In this document: positions 5,802-23,855 of the stretch, in pieces
Position numbering within the stretch: the stretch's first letter is position 1
Layout of the letters: each line of letters opens with the position of its first letter
From: a virus
Virus record (IMG/VR): IMGVR_UViG_3300030098_002683
Location: 1 to 28,850 of that record
Reading direction: 5' to 3' (one strand)
DNA: 28,850 nt
The notes under the pieces: model-generated
What the model was told of the DNA's origin: nothing
Database searches by the model: none
The model's input: only the letters and a program-made list of their open reading frames with translations
Translations under genes and position numbers: made by a program

Positions 5802-5810
5802 ACCTATTTT

Positions 5811-5850
5811 AATCTAAGATTTGACAAGCATATAGTACCTGTTATTGTAC
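5811..5850 (+). promoter_or_regulatory. Promoter with AATCTAAGATT palindrome, likely leaderless
   Basis: The perfect palindrome AATCTAAGATT (5811-5821) touches a consensus TTGACA (5821-5826). A -10 candidate TATTGT (5843-5848) lies 16 bases further. Transcription would begin at about 5855, which is the GTG start codon of the next gene. The block shares about 23 bases with the promoter at 10149. A repressor or activator at the palindrome would contact or block the -35 box. Confidence 0.65.
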
Positions 5851-6739: not shown

Positions 6740-7384
6740 ATGAATATTGAAACAGTACCTATTGAAAATTTAAAACCACACCCACAAAATTACAAAGAAC
6801 ACCCAGAAAATCAACTCGATCACATAATTAAATCTATTAATGAACATGGTTTTTATCGAAATGTAGTTATATCAAAAGATGATACGATACTGGCAGGTCA
6901 TGGTGTTGTTATGGCATGTATCAAAATGGGTAAGAGAGAAATACCATGCATAAGGTTAGATATTGAATCAGATTCTACACAGGCATTAAAAGTGCTTACA
7001 TCTGATAATGAAATAACAAATTTAGCAAAGGTTGATGACAGGCAATTATCTGAAATATTAAAAGAAATTTTAGATACAGATTTTGATTTGATCGGTACTG
7101 GTTTTGATGAGGATCAGTTAAGTGCGTTGGTGTATACAACAAGGCCTTCTTCAGAAATAGAAACATTTGATGAGGCTACCGAATGGGTTGGTATGGTTGA
7201 TTACAATAACCAACCAGATGATTTAAAAATTATGGTACATTTTGAAACAGAAGAAGATAGAGAAAATTTTATGCAGTTTCTTGGTAACCCACATGTAAAT
7301 TATAAAATGAAAAACACATGGAAGATTTGGTACCCAGAAAGAAAAAACGAAGATCCAAAATCAATAAGATTTGAAAATGGATAA
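6740..7384 (+). CDS. ParB/Srx-domain protein of a DNA-modification type locus
   Basis: 214 residues from ATG 6740. Residues 4-95 form a ParB N-terminal-like domain: IENLKPHPQNYKEHPENQLDHII opens it and TILAGHGVVMACIKMG (49-64) contains the GHG motif (53-55) that corresponds to the phosphate-binding loop. Residues 100-214 hold an acidic region and a DLKIMVHFETEEDRENFMQFL segment. Such proteins often lie beside phage DNA methyltransferases or base-modification enzymes. The next gene overlaps it and encodes a predicted base glycosyltransferase, so a role in targeting or supporting DNA modification is likely but inferred. Confidence 0.8.
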   Translation: MNIETVPIENLKPHPQNYKEHPENQLDHIIKSINEHGFYRNVVISKDDTILAGHGVVMACIKMGKREIPCIRLDIESDSTQALKVLTSDNEITNLAKVDDRQLSEILKEILDTDFDLIGTGFDEDQLSALVYTTRPSSEIETFDEATEWVGMVDYNNQPDDLKIMVHFETEEDRENFMQFLGNPHVNYKMKNTWKIWYPERKNEDPKSIRFENG

Positions 7385-8255
7385 ACCAAAATATCCAATC
7401 TATGTAATAAGCAAAGGTAGATCAGATGTTTGTTATACGGCAAACTTTATGTTGAAAGATAAATTAGATTTTACATTGGTTATTGAGCCACAAGAATATG
7501 ATGATTATGCAAGATTCTATGATGAAAAATTATTATTGGTTACACCATTCAGTAATTTAGGTCAAGGGTCAATACCAGTTAGAAATTTTGTATGGGAAGA
7601 TTCAATTAAAAAAGGTCATGATAAACATTGGTGCGTTGATGATAATATACATTCAGTTAGATATTCTTGGAACGGCAGACGCATAAAATGTGATTCGAAT
7701 ATTGGTTTTGGTGCAGTTGAAAAATTTACAGATAGATATGAAAATATTGCAATATCTGGCATGAATTATCATTTTTTTGTACCACCCGGTACAAGAAAGC
7801 CATTTTACCAAAATTGTAGGGTGTATTCTAATTTATTAATTAGAAATGATTTAGATTTTAGGTGGCGTGGTAGATACAACGAAGATACAGATTTATGTTT
7901 ACAAGCACTAAGCAAAGATTGGTGTACTGTTTTAATAAATGCATACATGATTGAGAAGAATGCCACAATGAGCATGAAAGGTGGGAACGCAACTGAATTA
8001 TATGTTGGCGACGGCAGGTTAAGAATGGCAAGAGAATTACAAGAACAATGGCCTTATGTTGTAGAGGTCAAAAGGGTATACGGTAGGCCACAACATAGAA
8101 TAAAATTTAACTGGCGTCATTTTGATACACCTTTAAAAAGAAGATCAGATTTAGATTGGAATAATATAGAAAAAGAAAAAATAAAAATGCAGATTGTTGA
8201 GGTTGATGAGATCAAATCAGAAACACTAAAGAGAGATGTAAAAAAATATAAATAA
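7377..8255 (+). CDS. TET-associated-type glycosyltransferase (predicted DNA base glycosylation)
   Basis: 292 residues from ATG 7377 (a TTG at 7371 would add two). The N-terminus YPIYVISKGRSD, the CVDDN motif (about 86-90, the metal/nucleotide-sugar DxD-like site), the NYHFFVPPG segment, YSNLLIRNDL and RGRYNEDTDLCLQAL match my memory of the TET-associated glycosyltransferase group, a GT-A fold predicted to add sugars to modified bases in phage DNA. It overlaps the ParB-like gene by 8 bases. No TET/JBP hydroxylase is in the window, so the acceptor base is unknown. Family by motif recall, substrate by inference. Confidence 0.72.
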   Translation: MDKPKYPIYVISKGRSDVCYTANFMLKDKLDFTLVIEPQEYDDYARFYDEKLLLVTPFSNLGQGSIPVRNFVWEDSIKKGHDKHWCVDDNIHSVRYSWNGRRIKCDSNIGFGAVEKFTDRYENIAISGMNYHFFVPPGTRKPFYQNCRVYSNLLIRNDLDFRWRGRYNEDTDLCLQALSKDWCTVLINAYMIEKNATMSMKGGNATELYVGDGRLRMARELQEQWPYVVEVKRVYGRPQHRIKFNWRHFDTPLKRRSDLDWNNIEKEKIKMQIVEVDEIKSETLKRDVKKYK

Positions 8256-8375: not shown

Positions 8376-8591
8376 ATGTTTGATTTATATGAAGATGAAT
8401 TATTTGACCCAATTGGTGTGGCAGAGATCGCAGATAAGTTGGGTGTAACAAGGCAAAAGGTAGCAAGTCTAAAACATCATGGTAAATTACCAGAGCCTAC
8501 AAAAGTTTTAAAGTGTGGTCCATTATGGGACGCAAAAGAAATAGACGACTTTATAAATACAGTCGGCATAAAAGATAACAGGAGGAAATAA
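8376..8591 (+). CDS. Helix-turn-helix DNA-binding protein (AlpA/excisionase-like)
   Basis: 71 residues from ATG 8376 with AGAAAGG five bases upstream. Residues 12-62 form a MerR/AlpA-type helix-turn-helix: IGVAEIADKLGVTRQKVASL, then HHGKLPEPTKVLKCGPLWDAKEIDDFI, where the Leu-Pro-x-P wing and the final W-x-x-x-x-I helix are typical. It heads an operon with recombination and replication genes and overlaps the next gene by one base. It could be a transcription regulator of this operon or an accessory replication factor. Confidence 0.72.
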   Translation: MFDLYEDELFDPIGVAEIADKLGVTRQKVASLKHHGKLPEPTKVLKCGPLWDAKEIDDFINTVGIKDNRRK

Positions 8592-9064
8592 TGACAAACA
8601 GGGAAACACAAATACAATTATCAAAACCATGGAATAATAATTTGATAAAACAAATGGACAAAGGTTTTGGAAAAATTGATTATGTTGAACATACACAGGT
8701 TGTTCAAAAATTAATTGCATTAATACCTGATCTTAATATGAAATTGGGTGATGTTATTTATGATGAAATTACAGATTCTAATGATATAAAAAGAACATTT
8801 GTAACAGGTATAAAGGTTGTTTTATGGGGAACAGTAGACGGTGAAGAAAAACAGGTTGAAGAATACGGCATGTGCGATAAACCATTTTTTCATGATAACC
8901 CTAATAAGGTTTCAAATAATGGACAGAGAATAAAAGAATGCATTTCAGACGGTTACAAAAGAGCCGCAATGAGATTAGGTGTTGGTCTTGAATTATATGA
9001 TACTGATGCTTGGTTATCTAATTATTTAATTAAAGAGGAAAATAAAGTCACTGAAGAAGAATAA
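8591..9064 (+). CDS. Rad52-like single-strand annealing protein
   Basis: 157 residues from ATG 8591, with GGAGG three bases before the overlap. The sequence follows the phage Rad52/Rad22 layout: LSKPWNNNLIKQ, then YVEHTQVVQKL (31-41), a beta-rich middle (VTGIKVVLWGTVDGEEKQVEEYG), and the conserved end GYKRAAMRLGVGLELYD. Such proteins anneal complementary single strands in phage replication and recombination, usually with a single-strand binding protein and exonuclease, neither of which I can name here. An Erf/Sak relative is the alternative. Confidence 0.72.
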   Translation: MTNRETQIQLSKPWNNNLIKQMDKGFGKIDYVEHTQVVQKLIALIPDLNMKLGDVIYDEITDSNDIKRTFVTGIKVVLWGTVDGEEKQVEEYGMCDKPFFHDNPNKVSNNGQRIKECISDGYKRAAMRLGVGLELYDTDAWLSNYLIKEENKVTEEE

Positions 9065-10146: not shown

Positions 10147-10148
10147 TA

Positions 10149-10213
10149 TTTTAATCTAAGATTTGACAAACATTTTAAAATTAGCCTAATATTCTTATAT
10201 AAATAGAGAAAGG
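10149..10213 (+). promoter_or_regulatory. Promoter with AATCTAAGATT palindrome and GAGAAAGG leader
   Basis: Palindrome AATCTAAGATT (10153-10163) touches TTGACA (10163-10168). TAATAT (10187-10192) is the -10 candidate at 18 bases. The leader ATAAATAGAGAAAGG, with the ribosome binding site at 10206-10213, is nearly identical to that of the promoter at 11754. The duplicated block indicates co-regulation of the two transcripts. Confidence 0.72.
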
Positions 10214-11675: not shown

Positions 11676-11756
11676 TATCACACTTATTACCCCTTGTTGT
11701 GATATGCGTACGACCCCCTAGATAGCTTGTATTACTAGGGGGTAATATTTTTTAAT
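11676..11756 (+). terminator. Terminator with a competing upstream hairpin (attenuator-like)
   Basis: ACCCCCTAG (11713-11721) pairs with CTAGGGGGT (11735-11743) and is followed by AATATTTTTT, a rho-independent terminator with a long loop. Upstream, TATCACA (11676-11682) pairs with TGTGATA (11698-11704). The loop of that hairpin contains TATTACCCC (11685-11693), exactly complementary to GGGGTAATA (11739-11747) in the terminator, so the two folds can exclude each other. The T-run merges into the next promoter. Confidence 0.6.
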
Positions 11757-11813
11757 CTAAGATTGACAAAGAATCAGAAAATGGCCTAATATACTCTTAT
11801 AAATAGAGAAAGG
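11754..11813 (+). promoter_or_regulatory. Promoter with AATCTAAGATT palindrome and GAGAAAGG leader
   Basis: Palindrome AATCTAAGATT (11754-11764) overlaps TTGACA (11763-11768) by two bases, one base closer than at the two other sites. TAATAT (11787-11792) is the -10 candidate. The ribosome binding site GAGAAAGG is at 11806-11813. The upstream edge overlaps the terminator T-run. Confidence 0.72.
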
Positions 11814-12346: not shown

Positions 12347-12793
12347 ATGAATAATAAACCAAAACTCGTAGATCAAGAATTAAAAGAAAGATTATTAGAG
12401 GCAATTAGATTAGGTATGTACACAGAACACGCATGTGCATACGCAGGGATAGCCTCAAGAACATTTAGATTATGGCGTGAAAAAGCAGAGAATGGTGTAG
12501 AGCCTTATGTGTCTTTTTGGTTAGAGGTAAACAAGGCAGAGGCAGATGCGATAATAAGGCGTGTTGCAAGAATAGAACAAGCAGGTAAAGAGGGTCAATG
12601 GCAAGCAGATGCATGGTTATTAGAAAGAAAATACCCAGATAAATTTGGTCGCAAAGAAAAATTACAGTTACAAGGCGACCCAAATGCACCAGTTGAGATA
12701 GAATTAAACTGGTCAGACGGTAAAAAGTTAGATCGTGAGAAAGAAATAATCATAGAGGCAGAAGATGTTAGAACGGTACAAGAAGAAGAATAA
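12347..12793 (+). CDS. Terminase small subunit
   Basis: 148 residues from ATG 12347. Residues 10-60 hold a helix-turn-helix of the terminase small subunit type (LLEAIRLGMYTEHACAYAGI, ASRTFRLWREKAENGVEPYV), then a helical oligomerisation region (EADAIIRRVARIEQAGKEGQWQ) and the WLLERKYPDKFGRKEKLQ segment frequent in this family. It recognises phage DNA for packaging. The C-terminus is acidic. The large subunit follows 756 bases later, separated by the methyltransferase cassette and small frames. Its start appears leaderless. Confidence 0.82.
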   Translation: MNNKPKLVDQELKERLLEAIRLGMYTEHACAYAGIASRTFRLWREKAENGVEPYVSFWLEVNKAEADAIIRRVARIEQAGKEGQWQADAWLLERKYPDKFGRKEKLQLQGDPNAPVEIELNWSDGKKLDREKEIIIEAEDVRTVQEEE

Positions 12794-12875
12794 TGAAGAA
12801 TTGTTTGTCATTGTTGACGGTCAAAGGGTACATGTCTCATGGTTAGAAGATTTAGATAAGGAAGAAGAAGAATGA
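12765..12875 (+). CDS. 36-residue hypothetical protein overlapping terminase small subunit
   Basis: ATG 12765 opens a frame that overlaps the terminase small gene by 29 bases and ends TGA at 12873-12875, overlapping the methyltransferase ATG at 12872. The product begins MLERYKKKNNEELF and ends VSWLEDLDKEEEE. Shorter starts (for example TTG 12801) are possible. The C-terminal part is duplicated at 13425-13463 on the other side of the methyltransferase gene. Function unknown; the coupling supports translation. Confidence 0.42.
   Translation: MLERYKKKNNEELFVIVDGQRVHVSWLEDLDKEEEE
12837..12871 (+). repeat. Direct repeat, left copy, flanking the methyltransferase gene
   Basis: 35 bases starting TCATGGTTAGAAGA, identical at 34 of 35 positions to 13425-13459 (G to A at one place). 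In this copy it encodes the end of the 36-residue frame and its stop overlaps the methyltransferase start. Confidence 0.9.
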
Positions 12876-13417
12876 TCTATATACCATTTCCTGATAAAAA
12901 GTACAACATAATTTATGCTGATCCGCCTTGGAATTATAAAGTTTGGTCAGCTAAAGGCACAGGCAGAAGTGCAGAACAGCATTATTCTACAATGACACTC
13001 AAAGACATACAAGATATGCCCATACAAGATATTGCAGATAATAATTGTATTCTATTTATGTGGGTAACTTATCCATTATTAGAAGATAGTTTTAAAGTTT
13101 TGAAATCTTGGGGTTTTACTTATAAAACTGTTGCTTTTACTTGGGTAAAAAAGAATAAAAAAGCAGATAGTTGGTTTTGGGGATTAGGTCATTGGACTAG
13201 AGCCAACGCTGAAATATGTATTTTAGCAACTCAAGGAAAAATAAAAAGACAATCGGCTAAAGTCCACCAAATAATTGATGAAAGAATACAAGAACACTCA
13301 AAGAAGCCAGACATTGTAAGAGATAAAATTGTTCAATTAGTAGGGGATTTACCACGCATAGAATTGTTTGCCAGACAATCTTATAAGGGTTGGGATAGTT
13401 GGGGAAATGAAATTTAA
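12872..13417 (+). CDS. MT-A70 family N6-adenine DNA methyltransferase
   Basis: 181 residues from ATG 12872, coupled to the upstream stop (AATGA). The DPPW motif (17-20) follows YNIIYA, and MWVTYPLLEDSFKVLKSWGF, NAEICILATQGK and the end DLPRIELFARQSYKGWDSWG are typical of the MT-A70 group that methylates adenine. No restriction partner is present, so this is a solitary phage enzyme, likely protecting DNA from host nucleases or marking it. Six of nine Thr codons are ACT, whereas neighbours strongly prefer ACA, and the gene lies between direct repeats. Both point to later acquisition. Confidence 0.88.
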   Translation: MIYIPFPDKKYNIIYADPPWNYKVWSAKGTGRSAEQHYSTMTLKDIQDMPIQDIADNNCILFMWVTYPLLEDSFKVLKSWGFTYKTVAFTWVKKNKKADSWFWGLGHWTRANAEICILATQGKIKRQSAKVHQIIDERIQEHSKKPDIVRDKIVQLVGDLPRIELFARQSYKGWDSWGNEI

Positions 13418-13424
13418 ACTATAA

Positions 13425-13459
13425 TCATGGTTAGAAGATTTAGATAAGAAAGAAGAAGA
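13425..13459 (+). repeat. Direct repeat, right copy, flanking the methyltransferase gene
   Basis: Matches 12837-12871 at 34 of 35 positions. The frame that reads WLEDLDKKEEE here is preceded by a stop at 13422-13424, so this copy is a remnant without its own start. Its TAA (13461-13463) still overlaps the ATG of the next small gene. Confidence 0.9.
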
Positions 13460-13462
13460 GTA

Positions 13463-13549
13463 ATGTATTGGTTTGATAACCCTATTATGGACGATTTAGA
13501 TGATGAATTGCCCAAAAATTCCGAAAATGCCGACCTAAAAAAAGAATAA
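13463..13549 (+). CDS. 28-residue acidic small protein before terminase
   Basis: ATG 13463 overlaps the stop of the repeat remnant, with AAGAAGAAGAG as a weak purine-rich site. Its TAA overlaps the terminase large ATG at 13549. The product begins MYWFDNPIMDDLDDELP and ends ADLKKE. Its likely value is translational coupling into the terminase gene. Whether the peptide itself has a role is unknown. Confidence 0.45.
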   Translation: MYWFDNPIMDDLDDELPKNSENADLKKE

Positions 13550-14817
13550 TGGACACAGATTTAAAAAATGTTGGCCTAAATAAAAAATATGTAGTTAAAT
13601 TACCAGAATTACATGAGGGTCAGAAAACAGTTGCACAATCTAATGCAAGATTTAAGGTGTTATCAGCAGGTCGTAGGTGGGGTAAAACAAGACTTGGTGT
13701 TTGGTTATGTTTAGAAAAAGCATGGAAAGGTGGCCGTGCATGGTGGATTGCACCAACATATGCTATGGCATTAGAGGGTTGGAAAGATTTAAGAAATATT
13801 GGTATTGAATATGGTACCTTAATTAAAGAATCAGAAAAAACAGTAATTATGCCAACAGGTGGTAGTGTATCGATCAGATCGGCAGACAATCCAGATAGGT
13901 TGAGAGGTGCAGGACTTGATTTTGTAGTTTTAGACGAGTGTGCATTTATGAAACCAAATGTATGGGCAGAGGTGGTAAGACCAACATTGACTGAAAGACA
14001 GGGTGGTGCATTATTTATTTCAACACCAAAAGGTTTCAATTGGTTTGAAGAATTGTACAATAAATCAGAATCATTAGATGATTGGGAAAGGTGGCAGTTA
14101 CCAACAAAAACAAACCCATTTGTACCATTATCTGAATTAGATATTGCAAAAGAAGAAATAGGTACATATCTATATTCACAAGAATATGAGGCCAAGTTTG
14201 TAGAATTTACAGGTGGTATATTTAAAGAAGATTGGATAAAAACATTTACCAAAGACACAGTAAGATTCATGAATAATGCAGGTTATTATGAAGAACGCAT
14301 ACAGTATGATCTTGGTACAGAAAAGGTTTTTGATATAGATTGCCAGAAATTTGCAACTGTTGATCTTGCAACATCAACAAGACAGACTGCTGATTACACA
14401 GTTATTGCATGTTTTGCAAAAACAGAAAATAATAAATTAATTCTTATCGATATGGTAAGAGAACGATTAGAGGGTCCAGATATTGTACCAAAGATAAAAC
14501 AAAAAGTATTGGAACATGGTTTGTCTTATGTTGGTATCGAAAGAGCAGGGTATCAATTATCACTTATACAAATTGCAAGAAGAGAGGGCTTGATTGTAAA
14601 AGAATTAAGACCAGACAAAGATAAAGTCAGTAGGGCATTACCATTATCTGCGTTTATGGAAGGCGGATCAATGTTTTTAAATTCAGCAAACATGCACTAT
14701 GATGATTTGAAAAGAGAATTATTGCAATTTCCAGAGAGTGAACATGATGACATGGTAGACGCACTTGCATACGGCGTTTTGGAAATACGAAATAAAAATA
14801 GATATATAGCTTATTAG
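13549..14817 (+). CDS. Terminase large subunit
   Basis: 422 residues from ATG 13549. The ATPase domain has Walker A GRRWGKT (41-47) and Walker B VVLDE (126-130), with FISTPKG at 154-160 as the coupling motif. The nuclease domain shows FATVDLA with Asp270, a central acidic region and SEHDDMVDALAYG (397-409), which supplies the last acidic residues. The enzyme pumps DNA into the prohead and cuts it. Length is usual. Translation is coupled to the 28-residue gene. It is followed by about 100 non-coding bases with a structured leader. Confidence 0.95.
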   Translation: MDTDLKNVGLNKKYVVKLPELHEGQKTVAQSNARFKVLSAGRRWGKTRLGVWLCLEKAWKGGRAWWIAPTYAMALEGWKDLRNIGIEYGTLIKESEKTVIMPTGGSVSIRSADNPDRLRGAGLDFVVLDECAFMKPNVWAEVVRPTLTERQGGALFISTPKGFNWFEELYNKSESLDDWERWQLPTKTNPFVPLSELDIAKEEIGTYLYSQEYEAKFVEFTGGIFKEDWIKTFTKDTVRFMNNAGYYEERIQYDLGTEKVFDIDCQKFATVDLATSTRQTADYTVIACFAKTENNKLILIDMVRERLEGPDIVPKIKQKVLEHGLSYVGIERAGYQLSLIQIARREGLIVKELRPDKDKVSRALPLSAFMEGGSMFLNSANMHYDDLKRELLQFPESEHDDMVDALAYGVLEIRNKNRYIAY

Positions 14818-22627: not shown

Positions 22628-22719
22628 TGGGATATGGTAGAGGTACAGGATCAGGTGGCCGAAGATCAAACAGAAATAGACGTAGAAGAAGAAGAAGGCA
22701 AACAAGGAGTATGTTCTAA
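22627..22719 (+). CDS. 30-residue Arg-rich, protamine-like peptide
   Basis: ATG 22627 and TAA 22717-22719 overlap genes on both sides by one base, so it is translated in coupling. The sequence begins MGYGRGTGSGG and contains 12 Arg in 30 residues, seven in a row (18-24), with no acidic residue. The composition is like DNA-condensing or RNA-binding peptides. In this late region it could be packaged with DNA or could simply bind RNA. Function is inference from charge only. Confidence 0.6.
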   Translation: MGYGRGTGSGGRRSNRNRRRRRRRQTRSMF

Positions 22720-23435
22720 TGGCATTTGTACATGGTAAAGATTCAAAAGTTTTTTTGGATAATAATGATTTTGGTGAATATTTTAATAATGTAGATTTTA
22801 CAAAAACAGCAGATGTAACAGAAACAACTGCATTTGGATCTTCAAATAAATCTTATATTGCAGGTGATAAGGACGGCACAGTTAGTTTATCTGGTATGTT
22901 TGATTCAGTTGCAGATGCAGTTCTTCAACCATTTTTAGGATCATCAACAAATACTGATATATGCATTGGTGCAGATGGTATTACAGACGGCAAAAGTATA
23001 TTTTTTGGTACAGGTGTAGTAACAAATTATGGACAATCTTCACCCGTTGGTGATGTTGTTGCCACTACTGTGGATTTACAGTCTAATGCAGGTTTATTTA
23101 CTGGTTTGGTTTTAGATAATGCAACTGTTACTGCAACAGGTAATTCAACAGTAACCGATAATAGTGCTTCAACAAGTAATGGTGGTGGTGCAATCGCCAT
23201 TGTTACTGCAAAATCTGGGTCATCAACACCAACAGCAACAATCAAGATACAACATAGTTCAGATAATGTTACATTTGTTGATCTTGTAACTTTTACAGAT
23301 TTCACGGCCGTAGGTTCACAAGTTAGTGAGGTTGCGAGTGGAACAACAATAAATAGATACCTTAGAGTCAATTATACGATAACTGGTAGTACACCAAGTT
23401 TTTCTGTAATAGTTGGCTTTGGAAGAGTAGGATAG
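22719..23435 (+). CDS. Tail tube paralogue 1 with extra C-terminal domain
   Basis: 238 residues from ATG 22719. Residues 1-115 align by eye with the next gene: MAFVHG, NNVDF, TADVTETT, SNKSYIAGDKDGTVSLSG and SSPVGDVVA are shared. This is a tail-tube-like beta domain. Residues 118-238 (VTATGNSTVTDNSASTS..., IKIQHSSDNVTFVDLVTF, RYLRVNYTITGSTPSFSVIVGFGR) form an added beta-sandwich of the type often used for surface display. It could be the major tail protein with an outward domain, or a minor one. Confidence 0.75.
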   Translation: MAFVHGKDSKVFLDNNDFGEYFNNVDFTKTADVTETTAFGSSNKSYIAGDKDGTVSLSGMFDSVADAVLQPFLGSSTNTDICIGADGITDGKSIFFGTGVVTNYGQSSPVGDVVATTVDLQSNAGLFTGLVLDNATVTATGNSTVTDNSASTSNGGGAIAIVTAKSGSSTPTATIKIQHSSDNVTFVDLVTFTDFTAVGSQVSEVASGTTINRYLRVNYTITGSTPSFSVIVGFGRVG

Positions 23436-23444
23436 GAGAGAAAT

Positions 23445-23855
23445 ATGGCATTTGTACATGGATCGGATAGTGTTTTCAAAATTGATAACGCAAGTGGATC
23501 ATTAACCGATATATCTGCATTTGTGAATAATGTAGACTTTCCAGAAACAGCTGATGTGGCTGAAACAACAACTCTAGGTGCAAGCAATAAAACCTATATT
23601 GCAGGTTTGAAAGATGCGACAATTTCACTTGGTGGAGTTTGGGACGCAACAGCAGACGCAATATTTGGTGCAGTAGTAGGTCAAGCTGCTACATTGTCTT
23701 ATGAATATTCACCAGAAGGTACTGCGTCTGGAAAGATTAAGTACACAGGGGAATGTATATTGACAAATTATGCTATTTCTTCACCAGTAGGAGATGTTGT
23801 TGCATTTTCTGGCGATCTGCAAGTCACAGGTGCAGTAACTAGAGGCACACACTAG
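23445..23855 (+). CDS. Tail tube paralogue 2, probable major tail protein
   Basis: 136 residues from ATG 23445 after AGGAGAG. It is a tail-tube domain alone: MAFVHGSDSVFKIDN, NNVDFPETADVAETTTLGAS, NKTYIAGLKDATISLGGVW and SSPVGDVVAFSGDLQVTG. The gene lies just before the tail chaperone and tape measure, the usual place for the tail tube. It lacks the extra domain of its neighbour. Which copy forms most of the tube cannot be read from sequence. Confidence 0.82.
   Translation: MAFVHGSDSVFKIDNASGSLTDISAFVNNVDFPETADVAETTTLGASNKTYIAGLKDATISLGGVWDATADAIFGAVVGQAATLSYEYSPEGTASGKIKYTGECILTNYAISSPVGDVVAFSGDLQVTGAVTRGTH

Follow-up and report, generated by a model that had tools for sequence, protein, structure and literature searches.

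Probable microhomology-assisted capture of an MT-A70 methyltransferase gene in the terminase interval of an uncultured phage

In the lactococcal 936-type phages Phi93 and Phi145, methyltransferase genes are found between the genes for the small (TerS) and large (TerL) terminase subunits, an interval described as an insertion hotspot (PMC4190342). These methyltransferases are unrelated to one another and include the Dam type; an anti-restriction role has been proposed for them, and protection from restriction enzymes was tested (PMC4190342). Repeat-flanked gene gains are known from mycobacteriophages. In LRRHood, 29-bp direct repeats surround an inserted segment, while Island3 gene 68 is accompanied by a ~50-bp repeat of the end of the preceding gene (PMC3029335). 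The boundary-sequence model of phage mosaicism, as cited in the same work, places exchange at short sequences common to gene borders (PMC3029335). Methyltransferase hotspots between the terminase genes and gene gains beside repeats are therefore already known, and the case described here is an unusually complete one.

The DNA analysed is a 28,850-nt stretch of a viral record (IMG/VR IMGVR_UViG_3300030098_002683, positions 1 to 28,850), hereafter the window, in which an MT-A70 adenine methyltransferase gene separates two short genes between TerS and TerL (Table 1). As in Phi93 and Phi145, the cargo occupies this place in the packaging module, and related phages hold unrelated methyltransferases there, including a Dam type. 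In contrast to the 936-type phages, which have HNH homing endonucleases nearby, none was seen here; the enzyme is an MT-A70 protein, the boundary is an overlap of Glu codons and ribosome site, and both the footprint and a donor-type locus can be resolved. Like LRRHood and Island3, the window has gained a gene beside a short direct repeat; relatives have one copy of it, and the repeated sequence is the end of a gene. For those two phages no donor locus was known, whereas here a 95% identical donor-type copy shares a junction with the window, and the cargo varies between relatives. Exchange at a short shared gene-border sequence is also what the boundary-sequence model describes, although in this case the border is a translational start and ribosome site that bridges unrelated regions, an early slot and the packaging slot.

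Table 1. Features of the window that bear on the inserted gene
Feature	Position	Strand	Remarks
Rad52-like single-strand annealing protein	8591..9064	+	PF04098, 21.9 bits against a cut-off of 20.3; PHROG 3290
TerS, terminase small subunit	12347..12793	+	Ends GAAGAAGAATAATG; PHROG 4102, E=3e-31; weak match, under cut-off, to the Sf6_terminase profile
36-aa gene	12765..12875	+	C-terminal end ..VIVDGQRVHVSWLEDLDKEEEE, then stop
Direct repeat, left copy	12837..12871	+	35 nt; coding, the end of the 36-aa gene
Left junction GAAGAAGAAGAATGATCTATAT	12861..12882	+	Exact match to L096 1926-1947
MT-A70 adenine methyltransferase, cargo gene	12872..13417	+	YADPPW motif; PF05063, E=1.4e-30; PHROG 359, E=1e-85
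Block shared with donor-type locus	12881..13422	+	542 bp, 95.4% identical (nt) to L096 2065-2606
Direct repeat, right copy	13425..13459	+	Untranslated remnant; purine-rich, ribosome-site-like stretch ahead of the TAATG of the 28-aa gene
28-aa gene (M-x-WFD..LDDLDDEL..)	13463..13549	+	Coupled to TerL
24-nt conserved element CGAAAATGCCGACCTAAAAAAAGA	13522..13545	+	Once per genome; candidate packaging site
TerL, terminase large subunit	13549..14817	+	PF03237, PF17289

The sequence-only reading had described the methyltransferase gene as flanked by a near-perfect direct repeat and translationally coupled to both neighbours, and sequence comparison bears this out. The two copies agree at 34 of 35 positions (91% when taken to 44 nt). 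Among the repeat families listed for the window, they form the only direct pair of at least 30 nt and more than 90% identity within 5 kb, the other large families being low-complexity, promoter-like or diverged paralogues. On the left, the stop of the 36-aa frame overlaps the methyltransferase start as ATGA. The right copy has no start codon and an in-frame TAA immediately 5' of it; it ends GAGTAATG, where its TAA and the start codon of the 28-aa gene overlap; that gene's stop, TAA as well, overlaps the TerL ATG at 13549. The junctions thus read ATGA, TAATG and TAATG in order. Removal of the gene together with one repeat copy had been expected to restore a simple chain; done in silico, it yields the frame MLERYKKKNNEELFVIVDGQRVHVSWLEDLDKEEEE and its stop, then ATG, a perfect succession from the 36-aa to the 28-aa gene. 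The right copy has probably been retained because the 28-aa gene takes its start region, GAAAGAAGAAGAG-TAATG, from it; we infer that this copy serves as the gene's ribosome site.

Relatives were collected from IMG/VR by TerL and TerS. An empty site, as had been predicted for phages without the gene, is present in five of them (L007, L010, L011, L013 and L015). Here a homologue of the 36-aa gene, which in relatives keeps the form ..VIVDGHRVHISWLP..EEE before its stop, leads directly into a homologue of the 28-aa gene, and TerL follows. In the closest relatives (L001-L005, five contigs of one lineage; TerL 92% identical in amino acids), the same slot holds an unrelated Dam-type methyltransferase (PF05869) after the same GAAGAAGAAGAATAATG boundary. 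Other cargo includes mutually homologous small ORFs of 65 aa in L008 and 56 aa in L006, a second Dam lineage in L151 and L153 (44% aa identity between the two Dam lineages), a SAM-methyltransferase-like gene in L152, and unknown genes in other relatives. A PAPS-reductase/SspD-like gene lies between the 24-nt element and TerL in L012 and L077, and between TerS and the element in L155, L156 and L158. The PAPS-reductase-like proteins of L012 and L158 share 57% aa identity, and the one from L012 has a match in PADLOC, to SspD (5e-19).

Across about 30 other contigs the slot varies. The TerS-TerL gap ranges from 148 to 1408 bp, the TerL-portal gap measures 55-117 bp in all lineages but one (542 bp), and the portal and MuF genes overlap. 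As related phages carry different, mutually unrelated cargo genes between TerS and TerL, this interval is a recurrent insertion hotspot for several cargo types. Single events can be read from pairs of relatives: L008 against L011 shows a precise gain, its insert bordered by TAATG, and L152 against L153 a gene-for-gene swap between near-identical flanks, both at the same kind of boundary. The clade of the window is uncultured. Its best cultured TerL match is about 27% identical over most of the length, another reaches 41% with half the length covered, and a search of GTDB genomes with the window's TerL found no relative, hence no host or prophage link.

The closest copy of the MT-A70 gene is in L096, which belongs to a different phage lineage and has a Rad52-like annealing gene of its own; the copy lies in its early region. 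The homologous block stops at window position 13422, two bases short of the right repeat. To the left of its MT-A70 gene, L096 carries the 22 nt of the window's left junction without a mismatch; there a 63-aa gene (..NEEEE, then stop) ends and a 42-aa gene starts within them. The L096 methyltransferase begins about 126 nt after this sequence, with a TTG start and the N-terminus IPFP, which is canonical and present in many relatives. In the window, the methyltransferase has the start of the 42-aa gene (ATGATCTAT) joined to it, giving MIY+IPFP, an N-terminus that looks chimeric. Because the extension is in the window and the canonical start in L096, the window lineage is the more likely recipient and an L096-like arrangement the more likely source. 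L096 is not itself the donor but related to it, and the right junction is thereby limited to comparison with a relative. A 17-nt leader, GAAGAAGAATGATCTAT, was set aside as a donor marker, as seven further viral contigs carry it without an MT-A70 relative.

The Dam enzyme of L001 has its best relative (70% aa) in L218, a phage related to L096 by its annealing gene (72% nt), the same neighbouring genes and a homologous 62-aa gene ending ..QEEE. The slot that follows this 62/63-aa gene, with its ..EEE(E) end, is occupied by MT-A70 in L096 and by Dam in L218; therefore, each of the two phage groups has a slot in which the two enzyme types alternate. Both recur in both slots, each time 3' of a GAAGAAGAAT(A)ATG boundary, which is read as Glu codons plus a ribosome site common to the two slots. 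Between the window and L096, the MT-A70 genes differ by 13 synonymous changes in 178 codons (95.4% nt identity over 542 bp), against 103 in 422 for TerL between the window and L001 (87.6%). These fewer changes suggest that the gene was acquired once the lineages of the window and L001 had split. If rates are comparable, both the gene and the duplication, whose copies differ at 1 of 35 positions, would be younger than that split.

Taking together the repeat, the frames, the empty site, the donor-type copies, the junctions and the alternation of enzymes, we put the probability at roughly 80% that microhomology-assisted recombination placed the MT-A70 gene between the 36-aa gene and the 28-aa gene, with the duplicate re-supplying a ribosome site. 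The source would have been an MT-A70 gene like the one that another phage lineage carries in its early region. The left exchange would have occurred at a purine-rich gene boundary common to both partners, where Glu codons form the ribosome site (GAAGAAGAAGAAT by the start codon). On the right, the join back to the recipient would have fallen 35 nt further upstream, where homology was slight or absent, and this offset between the recipient ends would have duplicated the 35 nt. In the product, the 36-aa gene would stay intact and the methyltransferase would be started via the stop/start overlap, while the 28-aa gene would gain a second copy of the ribosome site and its TAATG start, so that translation through to the terminase would be kept. 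The exchange was probably carried out by the Rad52-like annealing protein that the phage itself encodes. Phage recombinases of the Rad52-like kind are able to recombine stretches of homology that are short and diverged, and efficient pairing by Red-beta has been reported at 23-27 nt (PMC3945230). The left stretch shared on the recipient side is about 14-15 nt, below this range, and 'microhomology-assisted' was therefore chosen as a cautious term.

Other histories could leave a gene between two copies of a sequence. A donor cassette that already had the 35 nt at its right end could have entered by homologous recombination at the repeat, or as a circle by one crossover. Recombination at a repeat is expected to leave a gene flanked on both sides by a common sequence, and it has been used to explain both LRRHood (29 bp) and Island3 (~50 bp) (PMC3029335). 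This route is nevertheless unlikely here: outside the window, the only contig with the duplicated arrangement, the repeat core occurs in the viral collection, which may leave out records very close to the window, as single copies confined to the L001 group, which is without MT-A70, and the L096 sequence downstream of MT-A70 has no such repeat. If instead the border of the 36-aa and 28-aa genes had been tandemly duplicated before the methyltransferase entered between the copies, the ends would look the same, and the boundary is purine-rich and repetitive. Among the empty sites, however, no relative has two copies and no insert, and we consider this order of events very improbable.

Nor is an assembly artefact a convincing source of the structure. 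A metagenomic chimera is suggested by its being known from a single contig, but the sequence shared at the joins (14-22 nt on the left, ~2 nt on the right) is short for an assembly overlap, a misjoin would not readily make a diverged 34/35 duplicate with working frames on both sides, and the slot is also variable in the other contigs, about 30 in number; the chance of a chimera is slight. The sequence-only reading had called the repeat a target duplication, a term that fails in the transposition sense, with no transposase or inverted termini seen and 22 nt shared with the donor-type locus. An insert between direct repeats is what transposition or integrase-type insertion would give, the 35 bp being a target duplication or att core. 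Yet the sole ORF of note in this insert is MT-A70, with no recombinase, and the edges of other cargo differ (5-nt TAATG in L008, none in L001); this origin was rejected as scarcely credible.

The term moron had also been applied to the gene and fits it in part. As with phage morons, a segment present in one genome is absent between the adjacent genes of related ones (PMC3029335), here at five empty sites. In the strict sense the term does not hold: promoter-like and terminator-like sites do not rise above background and do not bracket the gene, the only terminator-like site lying upstream of TerS. Unlike morons with their own signals, this gene is inferred from the overlaps to be expressed by translational coupling. 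Codon usage contributes little to the case. The Thr counts given by the sequence-only reading are correct (6 ACT and 3 ACA, against a background of 109 ACT of 585; nominal p=0.002, in one of many possible comparisons), but the argument drawn from them is weak because Thr is one amino acid of 18 and the gene's overall codon usage and GC3 lie within the range of the window's other genes. Codon bias was accordingly discarded as proof of foreign origin. The insertion case rests on relatives, not codons, and it is the relatives and junctions that support a single-gene insertion of foreign origin with coupling preserved on both sides.

The methyltransferase contains the MT-A70 domain with its DPPW motif (YADPPW; PF05063, 1.4e-30) and matches solved MT-A70/METTL3 chains. 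From this family assignment, it is predicted to act as a DNA adenine methyltransferase. It would most likely mark progeny DNA late in infection, and so may protect it against restriction in the next host.

The TerS-TerL interval also contains a 24-nt conserved element with the consensus CRAAAATAGCGACTATAAAAAAGA. It is found once in each of the 33 distinct gaps scanned (TerS at least 55%, TerL about 60% or more), whatever the frame or cargo, and cargo lies on either side of it. Its distance to TerL ranges from 27 to 946 nt (element positions include 3971 in L010, 3116 in L077, 3441 in L148 and 3971 in L149), and it falls in at least two reading frames and also in non-coding DNA. In 21 held-out gaps, its score exceeded all 60 shuffles. 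Searching every IMG/VR contig for the core pattern gave 24 hits, of which 21 fall in the TerS-TerL interval in the same orientation; the element is absent from L173-L175 and more distant phages. Its position, uniqueness and frame-independent conservation make it a candidate packaging site (cos or pac), which would offer a possible cause of the hotspot. Contig ends, compared by eye, do not coincide with it (one starts 56 nt away, others are scattered) and thus lend no assembly support to a cos end. In L190, ten CAGTATT/AATACTG 7-mers occur within ~270 bp of the gap (0.18 expected in the gap), an iteron-like array between the element and TerL.

A broader scheme can be proposed only tentatively. 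The element would be the clade's cos/pac site, and cutting by terminase would make the interval a recombination hotspot. The annealing protein would load cargo, mostly DNA-modification genes, via shared ribosome-site/Glu-codon boundaries, with methyltransferases circulating between the early slot in one phage group and the packaging slot in the other.

Several other features of the window were recorded. A repeated promoter-like unit (TTTTAATCTAAGATTTGACA .. CCTAATAT .. TATAAATAGAGAAAGG), probably a shared phage promoter or operator, occurs at 5805-5831, 10147-10213 and 11748-11813. A TET-associated glycosyltransferase (PF20691, 2e-37) adjoins a ParB-like/methyltransferase N-terminal protein (7371-8255 and 6740-7384), a pair with a possible role in DNA hypermodification. 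Adjacent major-tail-protein-like genes at 22719-23435 and 23445-23855 are diverged tandem duplicates (~71% over 109 nt).

It is not common to have the product of a single-gene capture alongside both its empty site and a donor-type locus. The case shows how an operon with tight translational coupling can take up a gene without a break in translation, and it suggests that gene boundaries which also serve as ribosome sites act as bridges for recombination. If the 24-nt element is the packaging site, it would provide a testable cause for the presence of cargo beside terminase in some phages.
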